Shown: positions 34,076 through 49,899, counted from the first letter of the stretch. The stretch is 64,000 nt of DNA from Candidatus Endomicrobium procryptotermitis (GCA_031279415.1 JAITIP010000036.1:1-64000), one strand, 5' to 3'. The notes: generated from the sequence alone by a model not told the origin. Program-made: numbers and translations.

Positions 34076-37000
34076 ATGATTACAAAAAAATATGTAAGAA
34101 AACTTGTTTTATTTAGTGTTTTAAATTCATTTTTGCTAACTTTTGTTTTTTGTGATTTTGTATATGCAAAAAATGTAAAGAAGCTTGACAACATTGAAAA
34201 AATGGTTGAAAATTCAATGTTAATTGACAGCAGTTATTATGACAGTAATACTCTTATTATTCATATCCTAGATTCCCATAGCGATTATGAAGCGCAAAGA
34301 AAAATATCGGACATAATAGATTTTTACGATAAAAAAAAGCAAATAGAAAAAATATTTGTTGAAGGTGCTCCTTTGGGAAAAGTAAATTTGAATTTATTTA
34401 AAAGTATTGATGAAAATCTTAAAAAAAGTATTTTGGACAAAATGCTTTCTGAAGCGCAGATAGGAGCATGTGAGTATTATGCCTCTTATAATAATAGAGA
34501 CATTCTTTTTGGTATGGAGGACAATGATTTATATAATAAAAACCTGAGACTTATACAAAATATGTTATCGTTATACAAAGAGAGTGAAGCTTTTTTTAAA
34601 AATATTTCTGAAAAAATTGAAGTGTTAAAAAAAATTCATATGTCTGGTTCTTTTTTTGATATTGATAAGGCAATTGAAGAAGAAAATATAAATTCATATT
34701 CAAAAATAAAGGCATTTTTAAAAAAGGACGACAGTTTTGACGAAACTTTATATAAAGATTTTTTTACTTATTTATATTCAAAAGAACAAAGAGAAAAAAT
34801 CGATTATAAGTCCGCCATTAAAGAAATATCCTCTTTAAACAAGTATTTAAACTCAAAAATGTCTTACGGTAAATATATGAGAGTCAGCGATTTAATTTCC
34901 AATTCCGATGATAAAAACTCCTTAGCCGAAGCTTATAAAATAATAACTAAAAACGCTCCTGATGCCGAAAAATTTTTTCCACTAATAATGGAGATTTTCA
35001 GAATAAATTATGTCAACCTTAATTTGAATCCTTATGACGTTTACTTACAAAAACAATCGTTAAAGAAGCACATTGTCGAACGATTTGCTTCCAAAGAAGA
35101 AAAAGATATTATGTATCTTGCAGACATGGTCGAATCGCTAAAACAGATATATTCGCTCGGCATAACAAGAACAGATTTGCTTAATTTTATAAATACTAGA
35201 AACAATATCAAAGAAATAAGCGCAAAATACATGAATATAGCTGAAAGCAATACTCTTGTATATTTAGCGGAAAATAAAATTACCGACCTTATATATTTTA
35301 ATAATCTTCAAAGAGATTTGATTTTTTTCAATGCAGTTAAAGATGCAATAAATTCTGAGAAAAGCGGAAAAATAGGAAGCGCCGGCATATCAGGTATAAA
35401 TGATTTTTCTAATGTTTTTGTAGTTGTTACAGGCGGGTTTCATTTGGAATTTACGGATTTTTTAAGAAAAAATAAAATATCATATTTAAGTATAGCCCCC
35501 AAAATCGAAAAAAAATCCGATAGAACGCAGTATTTAGATGCGATTAATTTTCCGGGAAGAATCGGCAGCAAAAATATTACCTTTGAGCATTCTGCCTTTG
35601 CTCCGCCTCTTTTAAATGCCGTAACTAGTAATGAGAATGAACCTTTGAAAGGGAAAATAATAAAAAATATAATACAGGCTTGGGTTTCGACCGCACAAGA
35701 ATCGGGAGTATCTAAAGAAGATGTTTATGCGGATATGCTCGATTGGCTCATAAAAAATGGAATAAGCGAGAGCGATATAAAAAATATAGAAGAACTTTCT
35801 TTTCTGGCGGCAATGCTGCAAGAGCAAAGGATAAAGGCAGAAGAAAAAAATGTCGAAAAACAAGAACCGCAGACAAAAGCTCCCAACATAAGCGAAACAA
35901 ATGCCAAGCCTGAAAAAAAATCGATTTTTACAAAAATAAAAGGAAATCTTAAAGCTAAATTTCTCAGATGGAATTTTCCTGAGATTGCCGCAGCTAATGC
36001 TGTTTTTAAATCCGCGAAATCATATCAGGAGTTAGTGAATATAATCAGAAATCTTAAAAAAGTGAATACCATTGAATTTGATATAAAGCGCGAAGGATCA
36101 GACTTTTATATTGAATGCAGCAAAGGTTTTAAGGTTTCAATAGATGAAGCGCTTAATATAGTTGAGAAATTCGCAAAAAAGAAAAGTAAAACCAATATTA
36201 TATTAAACTTTGATAAAAGCATTGACAGTGACTCCGGCAGGATTCTCGGATTTACGCTTAAAATAAAGAATAAATTCATAATAATCAGCAGTAATAAAGA
36301 GTTTGCAGCTTCTGTCGATTCAGCCGTATACAAAAATGTAAGCATGGTTTACAAGATGCCTTCTGGTCTAAGCGCAGAGGATGCTCTTGAAGAAATAGAA
36401 AATATCACGGCAGCGGGTATTTTTGGATTGCATATCGATAAAAGTATTTTTGATTCGGTAGGTGTATACCTGTTTTCCATAAAACATCACGGCAAATATC
36501 TTGATCTGTATATTCAGGACGGAAAGGTCGATGAGCAATACAGTGATTTTATATTTGAGGGCAGAGGCAAAACTATTCTGATATCTTCTGAACCCGCAAC
36601 ACATCTGGAACAAAAGAAAAGATCTCTGGCAGCACACAGAAATATTTCAGCAGCACTTTTTATACATCTTGTTGTAGGTTTTGAATTTTTTGCTTCTTTC
36701 AGGAATGTGTATATTACTAAAGAACTAGGGTATGAAGCGTCATATTTAAGCATTATATTGGGATTATGTGCTTTACTTGCTGTTATGGGATCTCTTATAT
36801 CAAATTATCTAAGCAATTTATTCGGAAAGCGAAATGTTCTTATGGGCAACCTGTTTTTACATTGTGCGGGCGATGCTCTTTTACTTTTTGCGGGTGGGTC
36901 TCCTATATTACTCGGTTTTGCGTTGGGTGTTCCTGCCATGGCTGCTGCAGGAATAGGTGCTCTTTTTATACCATTTTTATATTCTTCACTTAAAACTATA

Positions 37001-37906
37001 GGAAAAGAAGATAATTTTGAATCGGTTTATGGGAAAATAAGGAGCAAATTTTGGATAGGATTTGCGATTTCAGTACTTTTGGGTAGTTTGCTTGCAGAAG
37101 TTGTAACTATGACTTTTGTAATTGCTATGTCAAGTATTTTAATAACATTTTTGAGTATTTATTCACTTATAATGACAAAATCCATTGCAGACAATAGGCA
37201 GGAAGAGAAAACTAAAGAAGAGAAACAGTTTTCTAATTTAAAAGAAAGTAAAAAGATATGGAATGCCGTCAAAACCGTGCTTACAACAAAAAATCTGAAT
37301 ACTATGGTTATAATCAACTTTATAATTGACAGTGGATTATTTGTTTTTCTTGATTTAGGTATGCAGCTTATGCTCCACAATGAGGGTAACGGTTTGAGAA
37401 CACTAGCTATTGGCATTGTAGTTTTTTCTGCAAGCTTAATGCAAAGCGTGGCAAGCAAGTTTGTCAGTAAAGTTTCATCATTTGTAAATAATTATTCTAG
37501 AAGAATAGTATATTTTACTTCTCTAACGGCACTTGTGGCTGGTTTCTTAGTATTTCATAATTTCTTTTTCTTAATAGCGTTTTATCTGCTTGCAAGTTTC
37601 TGGCAGGGCACATCATCCGTAGTTGAACCTGCTAAAGTAGAAAAAACATTATCTGATAATATCAGCCCCTACTGGTTTTCTGCAAAAATAGTTATAAATA
37701 GCGTGCTTGCCGCAGTGGTTGAATTAATTATTGCTTTATTGCTGTTTAACAACTTCGCCTATGCTACAATATTAATGCTTATGATGGCGGCAATAACGGT
37801 GTTTTCTGCAATTTTAAGCTCCTCATTTAGTAAACGGAAAAATCAAAAAGACTTTAACGAACTTCCTAATATTATGCTTACAAACAGAATGCTAAGCGCT
37901 GCATAG
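34076..37906 (+). CDS. Exported multi-domain protein with ChaN/TraB-like N-terminus and MFS C-terminus
   Basis: This 1276-residue protein is of unknown role. Residues 8-30 are a signal or anchor. Residues 55-490 look like a ChaN/TraB/EreA-type domain: I-L-D-S-H-S-D-Y-E-A-Q near 62, I-F-V-E-G near 96, F-G-M-E-D near 152 and V-V-T-G-G-F-H-L-E near 451, i.e. spaced His/Glu sites. Residues 500-630 are a charged linker. Residues 640-850 hold a mixed alpha/beta region that faintly recalls GDPD-like barrels (I-E-F-D-I-K near 665), uncertain. From about 852 to 1255 there are 12 membrane helices of a major-facilitator type. A 58-base AT-rich leader separates its promoter core from further repeats. No close neighbour hints at function. 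Confidence 0.6.
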   Translation: MITKKYVRKLVLFSVLNSFLLTFVFCDFVYAKNVKKLDNIEKMVENSMLIDSSYYDSNTLIIHILDSHSDYEAQRKISDIIDFYDKKKQIEKIFVEGAPLGKVNLNLFKSIDENLKKSILDKMLSEAQIGACEYYASYNNRDILFGMEDNDLYNKNLRLIQNMLSLYKESEAFFKNISEKIEVLKKIHMSGSFFDIDKAIEEENINSYSKIKAFLKKDDSFDETLYKDFFTYLYSKEQREKIDYKSAIKEISSLNKYLNSKMSYGKYMRVSDLISNSDDKNSLAEAYKIITKNAPDAEKFFPLIMEIFRINYVNLNLNPYDVYLQKQSLKKHIVERFASKEEKDIMYLADMVESLKQIYSLGITRTDLLNFINTRNNIKEISAKYMNIAESNTLVYLAENKITDLIYFNNLQRDLIFFNAVKDAINSEKSGKIGSAGISGINDFSNVFVVVTGGFHLEFTDFLRKNKISYLSIAPKIEKKSDRTQYLDAINFPGRIGSKNITFEHSAFAPPLLNAVTSNENEPLKGKIIKNIIQAWVSTAQESGVSKEDVYADMLDWLIKNGISESDIKNIEELSFLAAMLQEQRIKAEEKNVEKQEPQTKAPNISETNAKPEKKSIFTKIKGNLKAKFLRWNFPEIAAANAVFKSAKSYQELVNIIRNLKKVNTIEFDIKREGSDFYIECSKGFKVSIDEALNIVEKFAKKKSKTNIILNFDKSIDSDSGRILGFTLKIKNKFIIISSNKEFAASVDSAVYKNVSMVYKMPSGLSAEDALEEIENITAAGIFGLHIDKSIFDSVGVYLFSIKHHGKYLDLYIQDGKVDEQYSDFIFEGRGKTILISSEPATHLEQKKRSLAAHRNISAALFIHLVVGFEFFASFRNVYITKELGYEASYLSIILGLCALLAVMGSLISNYLSNLFGKRNVLMGNLFLHCAGDALLLFAGGSPILLGFALGVPAMAAAGIGALFIPFLYSSLKTIGKEDNFESVYGKIRSKFWIGFAISVLLGSLLAEVVTMTFVIAMSSILITFLSIYSLIMTKSIADNRQEEKTKEEKQFSNLKESKKIWNAVKTVLTTKNLNTMVIINFIIDSGLFVFLDLGMQLMLHNEGNGLRTLAIGIVVFSASLMQSVASKFVSKVSSFVNNYSRRIVYFTSLTALVAGFLVFHNFFFLIAFYLLASFWQGTSSVVEPAKVEKTLSDNISPYWFSAKIVINSVLAAVVELIIALLLFNNFAYATILMLMMAAITVFSAILSSSFSKRKNQKDFNELPNIMLTNRMLSAA

Positions 37907-43901: not shown

Positions 43902-46163
43902 TCAGTTTTTGTCTCTGATAATTTTTACCGCTTCCACCATGTTTTTTAATGCTGGTTTTACTTCTTCCCATTTTCTTGTTTTTAGTCCACAGTCCGGATT
44001 TATCCAGAGACGTTGGACAGGTATGATTTCTTTTAACTTTCTTATTTGATCTGCAAATTCTTCAACCTGCGGAATTCTAGGCGAATGGATATCGTAAACG
44101 CCGGGTCCTATTTCATTTTTGTATCCAACCTGCTTAAATGCATTTAATAATTCATTTCCGCTTCTTGTCGTTTCTATCGTTAAAACATCTGCATCCATCG
44201 CTTCTATTGTTTTTACTATTTCATTGAACTCGCTGTAACACATATGCGTGTGTATCTGCGTTTCTTTTTTTGCAGTACTTACGGCCAGCTTGAAATTTTC
44301 AACTGCCCATTTTTCATATTCAGCTATGTTTTCTTTTCGTATCGGATAGCCTTCTTTAAATGCAGCTTCATCAACTTGAATTATTTTTATTCCTGCCTGC
44401 TGCAAATCGTTTATTTCATCACTTAATGCCAACGCTATTTGTTTTGACACTTCATTTCTTGGCTTGTCGTCTCTTACAAAAGACCAGTTTAAAATCGTAA
44501 CAGGCCCTGTTAGCATGCCTTTCATCGCTTTTTTTGTTTTGCTTTGCGCATACGTTATCCATTTTACCGTCATCGGCTGCGGCCGAGAAATATCTCCGTA
44601 AATGATAGGCGGTTTTACACATCTTGAACCGTAACTTTGTACCCATGCATTTGTCGTAAAATGAAAACCTTTAAGCATTTCTCCGAAATACTCCACCATA
44701 TCGTTTCTTTCAGGTTCGCCATGCACTAAAACGTCTAAACCCGTTTCATCCTGAAAAGCTACACAGTTATCAATATATTTTTTTATTCCTGACTCGTATT
44801 CTTCAAGACAAATATTTCCTTTCTTATATTCTTTTCTGATACTACGTATGTCGTCTGTTTGCGGATAACTGCCAATGGTTGTTGTCGGAAGAAGCGGAAG
44901 GTTTAAATTTTTCTTTTGCAGCGGGTTTCTTTCTTTGAAATTTCCCCCGCGTTCAAACTTTTGAATATTTTTAACACGTGTTTGAACGGAAATATCATTA
45001 ATTTTACAAGAAGTTTTCTTTTCTTCTATCGCAGCGCGGCTTTGTGCAAGAAAAATTTCTTCCTGTTCGGATAAAGAATCTTTGTGAAACAGTTTTGCAA
45101 TAAGCACTGTTTCTTTTACTTTTTCGTAAGCAAAACTCAGCCAGCGTTTTATATCGCTGTCAGGCTCGTTTTCCAGTGCATACGGAACATGAAGAAGGGA
45201 GCAGCTTGTAGAGATGATAATATCCTGATGAGGCACGTTTTCGGCAATTTTATCTAACAATTTTACACTTTTGTCTATATCGTTAATCCAAACATTTCTA
45301 CCGTCAACAACTCCCGCTATAAGTTTTTTTGAATTTAATTTCTTTAATGCTTGCAAATTCTTTTTGCCATAGACAAAATCAAGCGCCACAGCCCATATTC
45401 CCGTCTCTGTAAGAATTTCAACCGCTTCAGTAGAATGTTCAAAATATGAAGTCACTATGATTTTAATTTTATCACTGACGCATGAAAGCGAAGTGTATGC
45501 GGTTTTTAAAAGTGTTAATTCAAGATTTGTAGTATCTTTTACTAAAAGGGGCTCTTCAAATTGAACATATACTATATCATCAAGCTTTGAAATTTCAGAC
45601 AGCAGTTCTTTATATATGGAAAGAATTTTATCGAAATATGCATTATATACGTTTCCTTCTTTATTTTTTGACAATCCTAAAAACGTTACGGGTCCTATAA
45701 TATTTATTTTAGGTGTTACAGCAGCCTTTTTCGCTTCTTTATATTCCGATATGATTTTTAAAGCGTTGAGCATGGGTTTCATATTGCCATTTAATTCTGG
45801 AACGATATAATGGTAATTTGTATTAAACCATTTAGTCATTTCAAGGGCAGTTGCTTTATCGTTTCCACGCGCCATGGCAAAATAACGATCAAGGTCGTTT
45901 TCAATAACCTTAAATCTTTCTGATACCGCGTTTAACATTACGGCGGTGTCAAGCATATTGTCATATAAACTAAAATCGTTTACGCTGATAAGATCAATTC
46001 CGCAGTTTTTTTGGTAAAGCAGGCTTTTTTGGCGTATTTGTGAGGCGGTTTTATGCAGCTGTTCGGCCTTAATTGCTCCTGACCAATAACTTTCTAAAGC
46101 TTTTTTTAATTCTCTTTTTTCACCAATTCTCGGAAAACCAGTGATGAGTGTCTTAATTGACAT
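43902..46163 (-). CDS. metE: Cobalamin-independent methionine synthase
   Basis: This 753-residue enzyme transfers methyl from 5-methyl-THF (polyglutamate) to homocysteine without B12. The C-terminal half carries the zinc-site residues in H-M-C-Y-S-E-F (His and Cys) and N-P-D-C-G-L-K-T-R-K-W (Cys), with a Q-V-D-E-A-A-F-K-E-G substrate segment. Length is typical. I choose ATG 46161-46163 because AGGAG lies 6 bases upstream; 27 bases of upstream frame without a site are excluded. A short cobalamin riboswitch ends about 40 bases before the start, so it should be off when B12 is plentiful. The methyl donor route may involve the MthfrC gene at 12.1 kb. Confidence 0.95.
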   Translation of the reverse strand: MSIKTLITGFPRIGEKRELKKALESYWSGAIKAEQLHKTASQIRQKSLLYQKNCGIDLISVNDFSLYDNMLDTAVMLNAVSERFKVIENDLDRYFAMARGNDKATALEMTKWFNTNYHYIVPELNGNMKPMLNALKIISEYKEAKKAAVTPKINIIGPVTFLGLSKNKEGNVYNAYFDKILSIYKELLSEISKLDDIVYVQFEEPLLVKDTTNLELTLLKTAYTSLSCVSDKIKIIVTSYFEHSTEAVEILTETGIWAVALDFVYGKKNLQALKKLNSKKLIAGVVDGRNVWINDIDKSVKLLDKIAENVPHQDIIISTSCSLLHVPYALENEPDSDIKRWLSFAYEKVKETVLIAKLFHKDSLSEQEEIFLAQSRAAIEEKKTSCKINDISVQTRVKNIQKFERGGNFKERNPLQKKNLNLPLLPTTTIGSYPQTDDIRSIRKEYKKGNICLEEYESGIKKYIDNCVAFQDETGLDVLVHGEPERNDMVEYFGEMLKGFHFTTNAWVQSYGSRCVKPPIIYGDISRPQPMTVKWITYAQSKTKKAMKGMLTGPVTILNWSFVRDDKPRNEVSKQIALALSDEINDLQQAGIKIIQVDEAAFKEGYPIRKENIAEYEKWAVENFKLAVSTAKKETQIHTHMCYSEFNEIVKTIEAMDADVLTIETTRSGNELLNAFKQVGYKNEIGPGVYDIHSPRIPQVEEFADQIRKLKEIIPVQRLWINPDCGLKTRKWEEVKPALKNMVEAVKIIRDKN

Positions 46164-46202
46164 AATTTTCTCCTTTTGTTTGCGCGACAAAATTTATTGA
46201 TT

Positions 46203-47269: not shown

Positions 47270-49321
47270 TCAGCTGTTAACTATTAACTGCTGTTCCAAC
47301 ATTTCTATTTGTTTGTTTATGGCCTCTATTCTTTCCTGTTTGCACTTCGGACATTGTGCATGTTCGCCTTCAAGGTATCCGCATACAGGACATACACTAA
47401 AAGTCGGCGTTATGGAAAAATACGGCAAACTATAATTTTCACAGACAGTTTTTATGAATTCTTTTAAGCTGCCCGTATCTTTTATTCTTTCGCCCATAAA
47501 TATATGGATAACCGTTCCTCCTGTATATTTTGTCTGCATTGAATCCTGTAAATCCAGATTTTCAAAAATATCATCTGTATAATTTACTGGAAGCTGACTG
47601 GAATTTGTGTAAAATGGCGTGCTTCCGTTCTCGTTTGCGGAAATTATTTCTGGATATTTCTGTTTATCAATCTTTGCAAGTCTATAAGACGTGCCTTCTG
47701 CGGGAGTAGCTTCAAGATTATAATTGTTTCCAGTTTCCTGCTGGTATATGATTAGTGTATCTCTTATGAAATCCAAAACTTTTTCGCCGAAAGCTTTGCC
47801 TTTTGGACTCCCAACGCCCTGACCGAAAAGGTTTAGACATGCCTCATTCAAACCGACAATTCCAATAGTTGAAAAATGGTTTTTCCAATATTCCCCAAAA
47901 CGTTCTTTTACGCTTCTTAGATAAAAACTCATATAAGGGTAAAGGCTTCCGGATGTAAATTTTTCAAGAACTTTTCTTTTTATCTCAAGACTTTCTTTGG
48001 CGATGTCCATGTTCTTTTTTAATATTTCAATAAAATCGGTTTCGTTCTTGGCAAGATAACCTATCCTTGGCAAGTTTATCGTAACAACGCCAATCGAACC
48101 CGTAAGAGGGGCAGCTCCGAATAACCCGCCCCCGCGTTTTTGCAATTCACGGTTGTCTATGCGCAGACGGCAACACATGCTTCTTGCATCTTCTGGTTTC
48201 ATGTCAGAATTTATGAAATTTGCAAAATAAGGTATGCCATATTTTGCAGTGATATCCCACAATGCGCTTATGTTTTTATTGTTCCAATCGAACTCTTTTG
48301 TAATATTATAAGTAGGTATTGGAAATGTGAAAACTCTTCCCTTAGCATCGCCGTCAAGCATGAGTTCCAAGAAAGCCTGATTTAACATGTCCATCTCTTT
48401 TTGAAATTCGCCGTAAGTCTTGTCCATACGATTGCCGCCTATTATCGCGGGTTCACTCTTATAGTACGGTGCTACGGTCAAATCCATAGTCAAATTCGTA
48501 AAAGGTGTTTGAAATCCTACCCTTGTGGGAACGTTTACGTTAAACAAAAATTCTTGTAAAGCCTGTTTTATTTCGTTGTAAGACAATTTGTCATAATAAA
48601 TGAAAGGTGCAAGCAAAGTGTCAAAATTTGAAAAAGCCTGCGCTCCTGCACTTTCTCCCTGAAGGGTATAGAAAAAATTTACTATCTGCCCTAAAGCCGT
48701 ACGGAAATGTTTTGCCGGCTTTGCCTCAGCTTTGCCTAAAGCGCCTTTAAAGCCGCTGAGAAGCAAATCCTGTAAATCCCAGCCAACGCAATATGCACCA
48801 AGAAGACCCAAATCATGAAGATGCAAATCTCCTCCACTGTGCGCTTTGCGGACGCTTTCGGGATAAATTTTGTTCAGCCAGTAAACTTTGCTGACTTCAG
48901 AAGAAATATAGTTGTTTAGCCCTTGCAACGAATACGACATATTGCTGTTTTCATTTACCTGCCAATCTATCTTTTTGAGATACTGTTCCACAAGGTCAAC
49001 GTTGAAAGCAGATGTTATTTCTCTTATTTTATTGTGTTGGTCGCGATAAAGAATATATGCTTTTGCAGTTTTTTTATAAACCGAAGAAAGTAAAACCTCT
49101 TCTACTATATCCTGAATTTCTTCAACCGTAGGTTTTCTGTCTTCTATTGTGTCCTGCAAAAGAGATAATGCTTTAAGCGTAAGTTTGTCTGCAACATCTG
49201 CACCAAACTCGCCTGTTGCCTGTCCTGCTTTTGCTATGGCTGCCGCTATTTTTTTAGGGTTAAACGGTTCTATCATGGCATTTCTTTTTACTATTGCACT
49301 AAAAAACTCTGCATTTTCCAT
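47270..49321 (-). CDS. nrdD: Anaerobic ribonucleoside-triphosphate reductase, large part
   Basis: This 683-residue class III enzyme reduces NTPs to dNTPs without oxygen. It has an ATP-cone at the N-terminus (V-K-R-N-A-M-I-E-P-F-N-P-K-K-I), the barrel with N-F-Y-T-L-Q-G-E-S-A-G-A-Q-A-F-S and C-C-R-L-R-I-D-N-R-E-L, and a C-terminal zinc finger C-P-V-C-G...C-P-K-C near residue 650-665. The glycyl-radical loop is missing from this chain and is encoded by the next gene. Upstream are a terminator and a large cobalamin riboswitch, so it should be shut off when B12 lets a class II enzyme work. Confidence 0.95.
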   Translation of the reverse strand: MENAEFFSAIVKRNAMIEPFNPKKIAAAIAKAGQATGEFGADVADKLTLKALSLLQDTIEDRKPTVEEIQDIVEEVLLSSVYKKTAKAYILYRDQHNKIREITSAFNVDLVEQYLKKIDWQVNENSNMSYSLQGLNNYISSEVSKVYWLNKIYPESVRKAHSGGDLHLHDLGLLGAYCVGWDLQDLLLSGFKGALGKAEAKPAKHFRTALGQIVNFFYTLQGESAGAQAFSNFDTLLAPFIYYDKLSYNEIKQALQEFLFNVNVPTRVGFQTPFTNLTMDLTVAPYYKSEPAIIGGNRMDKTYGEFQKEMDMLNQAFLELMLDGDAKGRVFTFPIPTYNITKEFDWNNKNISALWDITAKYGIPYFANFINSDMKPEDARSMCCRLRIDNRELQKRGGGLFGAAPLTGSIGVVTINLPRIGYLAKNETDFIEILKKNMDIAKESLEIKRKVLEKFTSGSLYPYMSFYLRSVKERFGEYWKNHFSTIGIVGLNEACLNLFGQGVGSPKGKAFGEKVLDFIRDTLIIYQQETGNNYNLEATPAEGTSYRLAKIDKQKYPEIISANENGSTPFYTNSSQLPVNYTDDIFENLDLQDSMQTKYTGGTVIHIFMGERIKDTGSLKEFIKTVCENYSLPYFSITPTFSVCPVCGYLEGEHAQCPKCKQERIEAINKQIEMLEQQLIVNS

Positions 49322-49372: not shown

Positions 49373-49463
49373 GCTGTACCCTGGTTTCATGACCTCAAAT
49401 AACAAATTAAGCTACTGTCCGCGGCAACTTAATATTATTTGCCTGTTTTCAGGCAGCTTTTTT

Positions 49464-49643
49464 GGCAGGTCTTCTGGCTTGGGAATAATAAATGCCGTAC
49501 AAAACTCAAACATTTAATCTACTTGCCGCGCCTTCCCACCCACAACCGAATTGGGCAGTGGCTAAATCTGCGGCTTTTGTTTTCCCCTTACAGCATCGGG
49601 AATGCTTCCGATTTTCACGGAATTTCCTATTAGGTTACGCAAT
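49464..49643 (-). promoter_or_regulatory. Cobalamin riboswitch upstream of nrdD
   Basis: On the minus strand it reads TAGGAAATTCCGTGAAAATC, GATGCTGTAA, CCACTGCC, TGGGAAGG and the B12 box AAGCCAGAAGACCTGCC (49464-49480), in the order of the large adenosylcobalamin riboswitches. A GCCTG/CAGGC hairpin at 49441-49454 lies just downstream. It is separated from nrdD by the terminator at 49340-49372. Confidence 0.92.
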
Positions 49644-49899
49644 AAAACCCTGCGAAACACCAAAAAAGCAAAAATCTATATATTGTGTTTTAAAATCTAG
49701 ATGACACAACTAATGCTATATTATTAAAATAAAAATGTCAATTACTTGTAATATCACACAAGCACTTTGAGCGACCTTCTGTGCGCCATCTTGTAAAATT
49801 TACTGCAATATGCATTTGATATTTTTCATGTTTTTGGTGGCAGTCAAGTTTCTATTTATTGATTTCTAATTAAATTTTTGATAAAAAACACTAAGTGAA

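Follow-up and report, generated by a model that had tools for sequence, protein, structure and literature searches.

Giant proteins are known from this part of the tree, and few of their parts are recognisable, so what unites them cannot be said. Elusimicrobiota are counted among the phyla rich in huge proteins (PMC11573180, PMC12057145). The giant open reading frames (ORFs) of Omnitrophota are described as having few annotated domains (Seymour 2023, PMC10066038). The proteins treated here are likewise very long, with many transmembrane (TM) segments and few known domains (PMC10066038; PMC11573180; PMC12057145). They share an N-terminal head and a C-terminal tail, which do not figure in the available descriptions of the other giants. 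No published account of a shared head or tail was found in the open literature, which is the only literature covered, so its absence is not proven. The literature also yielded nothing specific on the giants of Endomicrobia.

The closest described relatives of the head are the proteins of the TIKI/TraB/ChaN/Ere superfamily (Pfam PF04187 Cofac_haem_bdg and relatives). These have in common with the head a [D/E]-x-H motif, a glutamate 28 residues further on, a late histidine after a core strand and, going by the predicted model of the head, probably an alpha/beta core. Known active members of the superfamily are marked by a 2His/2Glu set, to which the first Glu belongs (PMC6254334). His-Glu pairs at the same spacing of 28 are found in Bcr135 (H85/E113) and RRSP (H3902/E3930), and PMT lacks the whole 2His/2Glu set, yet is filed in the TIKI/ChaN superfamily (PMC6254334). 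The head departs from these proteins in that the first Glu is replaced by Asp, a helical insertion of ~280 residues is present, and the domain caps much larger proteins.

The window analysed here is a stretch of 64,000 nucleotides from Candidatus Endomicrobium procryptotermitis. Judged from its sequence, the 1276-aa gene codes for one of the shorter members, with a transporter as its body, of a family of membrane-associated head proteins in Elusimicrobiota that consists mostly of giants and reaches up to ~12,700 residues. The protein runs from a signal peptide through a TIKI/ChaN-superfamily head, a helical linker, a degenerate GDPD-like barrel and a 12-TM MFS carrier to the tail TNRMLSAA, and this architecture is well supported (Table 1). 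The initial annotation had reported the ORF, which is exactly as it gave it, and a set of spaced motifs in its N-terminal half, which are present; the motifs are DSHSDYEAQ (D66-x-H68...Q74), VEGA (E96), and GGFH (H456). The gene is neither a chance ORF nor an assembly join, since it has paralogues in its own genome, a full-length relative with 42% identity in another species, and a fusion of head and MFS carrier that recurs. Neither of its neighbours, an M23 peptidase gene (divergent) and an OprB-type porin gene (convergent), hints at an operon. Scanning for promoters and terminators gave no signal above chance, and a plasmid search found none. Elsewhere in the window are a gene for cobalamin-independent methionine synthase (43902-46190, minus strand) and a cobalamin riboswitch (49447-49679, minus strand) ahead of a 683-aa ORF (47270-49321, minus strand).

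Table 1. Features of the 1276-aa gene and its product, in window coordinates, with the evidence for each.
Feature	Position	Strand	Evidence
ORF, 1276 aa, ATG start, intact	34076-37906	+	longest ORF of the window
Signal-peptide-like N-terminus, residues 1-31 (MITKKYVRKLVLFSVLNSFLLTFVFCDFVYA)	34076..34168	+	hydrophobic core 10-28 after KK/RK; A31; [small]-x-A c-region
TIKI/ChaN-superfamily head (putative), residues 45-490	34208..35545	+	57-member alignment A2; AF2 pLDDT 87.4, alpha/beta core; phylum relatives match PF04187
D66-x-H68 motif of head (predicted active site)	34271..34279	+	[DE]xH...Q in 118/118 readable heads
E96 of head, 28 residues beyond H68	34361..34363	+	spacing 28 in 112/118
Large helical insertion of head, residues ~150-426	34523..35353	+	AF2 secondary structure
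H456 of GGFH, at end of core strand	35441..35443	+	GG[FY]H in 118/118
Helical linker, residues ~509-592, SAFAPPLLN motif ahead	35600..35851	+	alignment and AF2 of middle part
Charged linker, residues ~593-640, probably disordered	35852..35995	+	pLDDT below 50
Degenerate GDPD/PLC-like barrel, residues ~640-838	35993..36589	+	hhalign to GDPD; Foldseek on low-confidence model; catalytic His absent
MFS carrier, residues ~855-1250, 12 TM	36638..37825	+	PF07690 E=2.1e-18; hydropathy, positive-inside; alignment A4
C-terminal family tail TNRMLSAA, residues 1269-1276	37880..37903	+	28/33 complete head-bearing ORFs vs 4/1307 other ORFs of the same loci; 10 unrelated bodies

The head is placed through its relatives. 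The window head has no significant match in Pfam, NCBIfam, PDB sequences or PDB folds; a Pfam search with the 1276-aa protein gives no match to PF04187 (ChaN/Tiki), and direct hhalign comparison of the head with ChaN proteins is not significant (2-3%). Heads from sister classes of the same phylum belong to the same family (hhalign E=6.7e-50), and 6 of 7 of them match PF04187 with E-values from 8e-7 to 1.4e-3, one scoring above the gathering threshold (29.6 against 27.7). Across the 57 aligned heads the D, H, Q, E, N, R and GGH positions do not vary, and the His-to-Glu distance typical of the family is also seen in ChaN proteins of the phylum (28-29). Since the sister-class intermediates reach PF04187 and the motif spacing agrees, we place the head, as a putative distant branch, in the TIKI/ChaN superfamily, Asp standing where the first Glu would be. 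This first position of the catalytic set is Asp in 116 of the 118 readable heads and Glu in the other 2. Assignment to ChaN proper (PF04187) was set aside, the protein itself giving no match to that profile. The AF2 model has six strands with flanking helices and carries the conserved residues on the strands. A ChaN/TraB-like domain had been called here by the initial annotation, and the D-x-H...E...GGFH series, near-invariant among the 118 heads, together with the relatives that reach PF04187, argues in its favour. Foldseek of the head model against the PDB lists EreC and the Ere-like structures 2rad and 3b55 among the best matches, none of which is significant (no E below 0.1).

The middle of the protein, in which a faint resemblance to GDPD folds had been noticed, does align with this family. 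By hhalign, residues ~640-838 match GDPD (81%, E=1.2e-5) with the catalytic E-x-D motif in register, whereas the control comparisons of head with GDPD and of middle with ChaN give nothing. The AF2 model of the barrel is weak (pLDDT 58.7, from two sequences), and its top Foldseek matches are PI-PLC and GDPD. A putative barrel-like beta/alpha pattern, the E-x-D register and these best structural matches link this part to the GDPD (PF03009)/PLC-like phosphodiesterases. Unlike them, the barrel lacks the histidines of the HRG and HD motifs and keeps E-x-D alone, which is itself absent or altered in orthologues. With neither histidine motif left and with orthologues lacking E-x-D, the barrel is considered degenerate, and no enzyme is expected. 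It is restricted to close relatives.

The C-terminal transporter called in the initial annotation is confirmed as an MFS carrier, which scores 66.8 bits with PF07690 (cut-off 33.4). All 12 TM segments are seen in an orthologue; a simple hydropathy scan misses one in the window protein. The MFS invariant residues are kept across distant members (alignment A4), and the positive-inside count gives a topology with both ends inside (N-in/C-in). With DHA1-like efflux carriers (Bcr/CflA, Tet) the MFS part shares 12 TM, the Pfam MFS_1 match and a remnant of motif A. It differs from them in falling below every NCBIfam subfamily cut-off and in being joined to an N-terminal part of 850 residues and to the family tail. 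The weak NCBIfam matches are mainly to efflux families, and no importer family was matched.

A search for the same fusion in related genomes, as had been proposed, found head and MFS carrier sharing a single frame in 11 genomes from 7 genera; halves that are never fused elsewhere, which would have told against the initial annotation, are thus not what was seen. The head tree requires at least 3 changes of the MFS label on supported branches, and the head of one fusion (L214) comes from a quite different clade, so head and MFS must have been joined on more than one occasion. In one rumen species (L210), a protein made of signal peptide, MFS and tail lacks the head. In this and other rumen relatives (L205, L206, L207, L210), a gene resembling an anaerobic ribonucleotide reductase, as judged by eye from sequence, is found close to the MFS member.

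Most head-bearing proteins are of another kind. A search of its own genome with the 1276-aa protein finds 11 other places, all matching within residues ~5-565 and several of them in very long frames (10,988, 3,159, 2,885, 2,570 and 2,095 aa). The profile of 57 heads finds 16 matches there. With the same profile, the head is found in 47 of 76 genomes of the class, mostly in large ORFs, with frames up to 12,656 aa; most of the larger Endomicrobia genomes (~1.8-3.4 Mb) have ~5-23 head proteins each. Many of the related contigs are from termite gut and rumen. The head also occurs in sister classes of Elusimicrobiota. Across the family the bodies are mostly unrelated. The head is mostly missing from genus g8 (~0.5-1.4 Mb) and from one single-contig genome (G014), and the family may have been lost with genome reduction.

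The bodies behind the heads are varied, and many open with a further membrane module. A TM hairpin followed by HExxH comes after the head in 35 of 120 members, against 11 of 362 background windows. In another class of giants, membrane-protease motifs of the CPBP-like EExxFR type lie ~150-400 residues past the head, as in L011, L060, L115, L084, L078, L104 and others, and L060 has an Rce1-like module (E=5.7e-4). This 2,935-aa giant (L060:10001-21461) also contains an LMWPc domain (low-molecular-weight phosphotyrosine phosphatase, E=4.7e-14) behind the Rce1-like module. PPDK, SecA-DEAD-like, LMWPc and UDPGP domains are found deeper in the giant bodies, and most of their length is without a recognised domain. 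On contig C13 of the same genome as the window, L009:5028-20000 and L010:1-17940 form a single open frame of ~10,970 aa; this giant has a head, a TM hairpin with HExxH, a SecA-DEAD-like stretch, ~36 hydrophobic segments and an ILSAA tail. Contigs of this genome break within identical stretches of different giant paralogues (ends of L012, L014, L015 and L016), and broken giant ends share the same last 20 residues in pairs. These breaks suggest repeats in common or an exchange of sequence in the recent past. L019 (C33:8219-8710), a piece of a head interrupted by a TGA, is apparently a decaying copy.

The second common element is at the other end of the proteins. The pattern [ILVMTYF][KRNSHQ]x[ILVM]Lx[ASC][ASG]-COOH was written after the first tails were seen, and TNRMLSAA of the 1276-aa protein fits it. 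The four fitting ORFs without a head (Table 1) include at least two cut-off ends of long ORFs and one head-less MFS protein. Of the members added after the pattern was set, two conform to it, C17 (11,892 aa) and L214, and L204 departs from it. The strict pattern does not extend to the giants of sister classes, some of which have SSA, ESA or QQA at their ends. By their last 400 residues, the 35 proteins with the tail form 10 groups unrelated to one another; the tail therefore does not depend on the body that it follows. That the tail is part of a homologous C-terminal domain was hence rejected. Candidate tmRNA tags of relatives in the class end in LAA or IAA in another register, and for this reason the tail was also rejected as a tmRNA tag.

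Several roles can be proposed for such an arrangement. Sec would export the head, which is predicted to be a hydrolase of the peptidase or esterase type, as in TIKI/Ere proteins, and which would act near the membrane and do the work that all members have in common. The body, in this protein an efflux-type MFS carrier, would be a swappable effector, and the GDPD-like barrel a spacer or ligand-binding part. The class adds an eight-residue tail to family members whatever their body, and LSAA may be a recognition signal for one shared partner treating all members alike, for which a C-terminal (PDZ) protease or a sorting or assembly factor is a candidate. Taken together, an exported hydrolase head, a swappable body and a recognition tail have somewhat less than an even chance of being right. 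Export of the head is the step on which the evidence divides. A31 is nearly invariant across 11 paralogues of the same genome, a [small]-x-A c-region is present at 96 of 108 N-termini of the family, and 76 of the 108 are more positive on the N-flank than on the C-flank. The positive-inside count of the MFS part is 28 to 3 in favour of N-in/C-in, with KKR...R directly before TM1, and the first TM cluster of the body is N-in in 57, N-out in 18 and tied in 8 of 83 members by a crude scan with a consistent trend. The signal-peptide-like N-termini conflict with a charge pattern that places the preceding chain in the cytoplasm. Were the N-terminal segment an anchor, the head would stay unexported, with head, barrel and tail cytoplasmic and the MFS carrier N-in/C-in; the charge counts agree with this, as do the normally cytosolic folds of several giant bodies (PPDK, SecA-DEAD-like, UDPGP, LMWPc). 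It is nevertheless unlikely, given that the N-termini resemble cleavable signal peptides in their flank charges and in a near-invariant Ala at the expected site. Similarly improbable is that the tail acts as a degradation or trimming signal like ssrA or Prc/Tsp sites, through which one protease clears or matures the giants. [L]-x-A-A-COOH resembles the ssrA tag and the sites of tail-specific protease (Prc/Tsp), the chain nearly always finishes in A, S, C, G or V with L at -4, the candidate tmRNA tags of the class end alike in LAA or IAA, and the body ahead makes no difference. The aliphatic residue of ssrA, however, is at -3, whereas that of the family tail is at -4, preceded by a conserved K/R at -7, and it would be strange for every member of a large family to carry a permanent degron unless this were regulated.

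The joining of head and carrier admits further explanations. The initial annotation envisaged one machine for a host-derived compound (ester, haem or lipid), with processing by the head and import of the product by the carrier fused to it. TIKI/Ere members are indeed esterases, peptidases or haem binders, and the covalent join has been made more than once across the genera that carry it. This role is nonetheless highly improbable: the head usually sits on non-transporter bodies, the barrel has lost its active site including the GDPD catalytic His, the MFS part is closer to efflux families than to importers (all weakly), the L210 species does without the head, and the neighbouring genes point to no uptake pathway. 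Alternatively, recombination between paralogues could glue head, tail and any body into mosaics without joint function, the head being a membrane-targeting scaffold and the MFS carrier working alone or decaying. The occurrence of MFS parts on different head lineages, the degenerate barrel, the head-less MFS protein and the contigs that stop within the same stretch in different paralogues, which points to repeats in common, are all consistent with such mosaics. Set against them are the site residues of the head, strictly conserved at ~23% identity and needless for a pure scaffold, and the MFS invariant residues kept among distant members, so that a pure mosaic is rather doubtful. A wider form of the proposal with exported head and recognition tail is that Endomicrobia have a handling system for giant proteins, in which the TIKI-fold head and the eight-residue tag bracket dozens of unrelated bodies, and one shared tag-reading machinery exports, matures or clears them all. 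This is a tentative suggestion, one we would sooner doubt than rely on. Its bodies would comprise, with the same reserve, transporters, membrane-protease-like modules and polyenzyme mosaics of up to ~12,700 residues.

The initial annotation is accordingly supported in part: its domain calls hold, and the class-wide family of giants with head and tail lay outside its view. A common head with a conserved putative active site and a C-terminal tag give the giants of Endomicrobia a family definition and a handle by which members can be found. At 1276 aa and with its simple layout, the MFS-bodied protein lends itself to expression and so offers a convenient way into the family.
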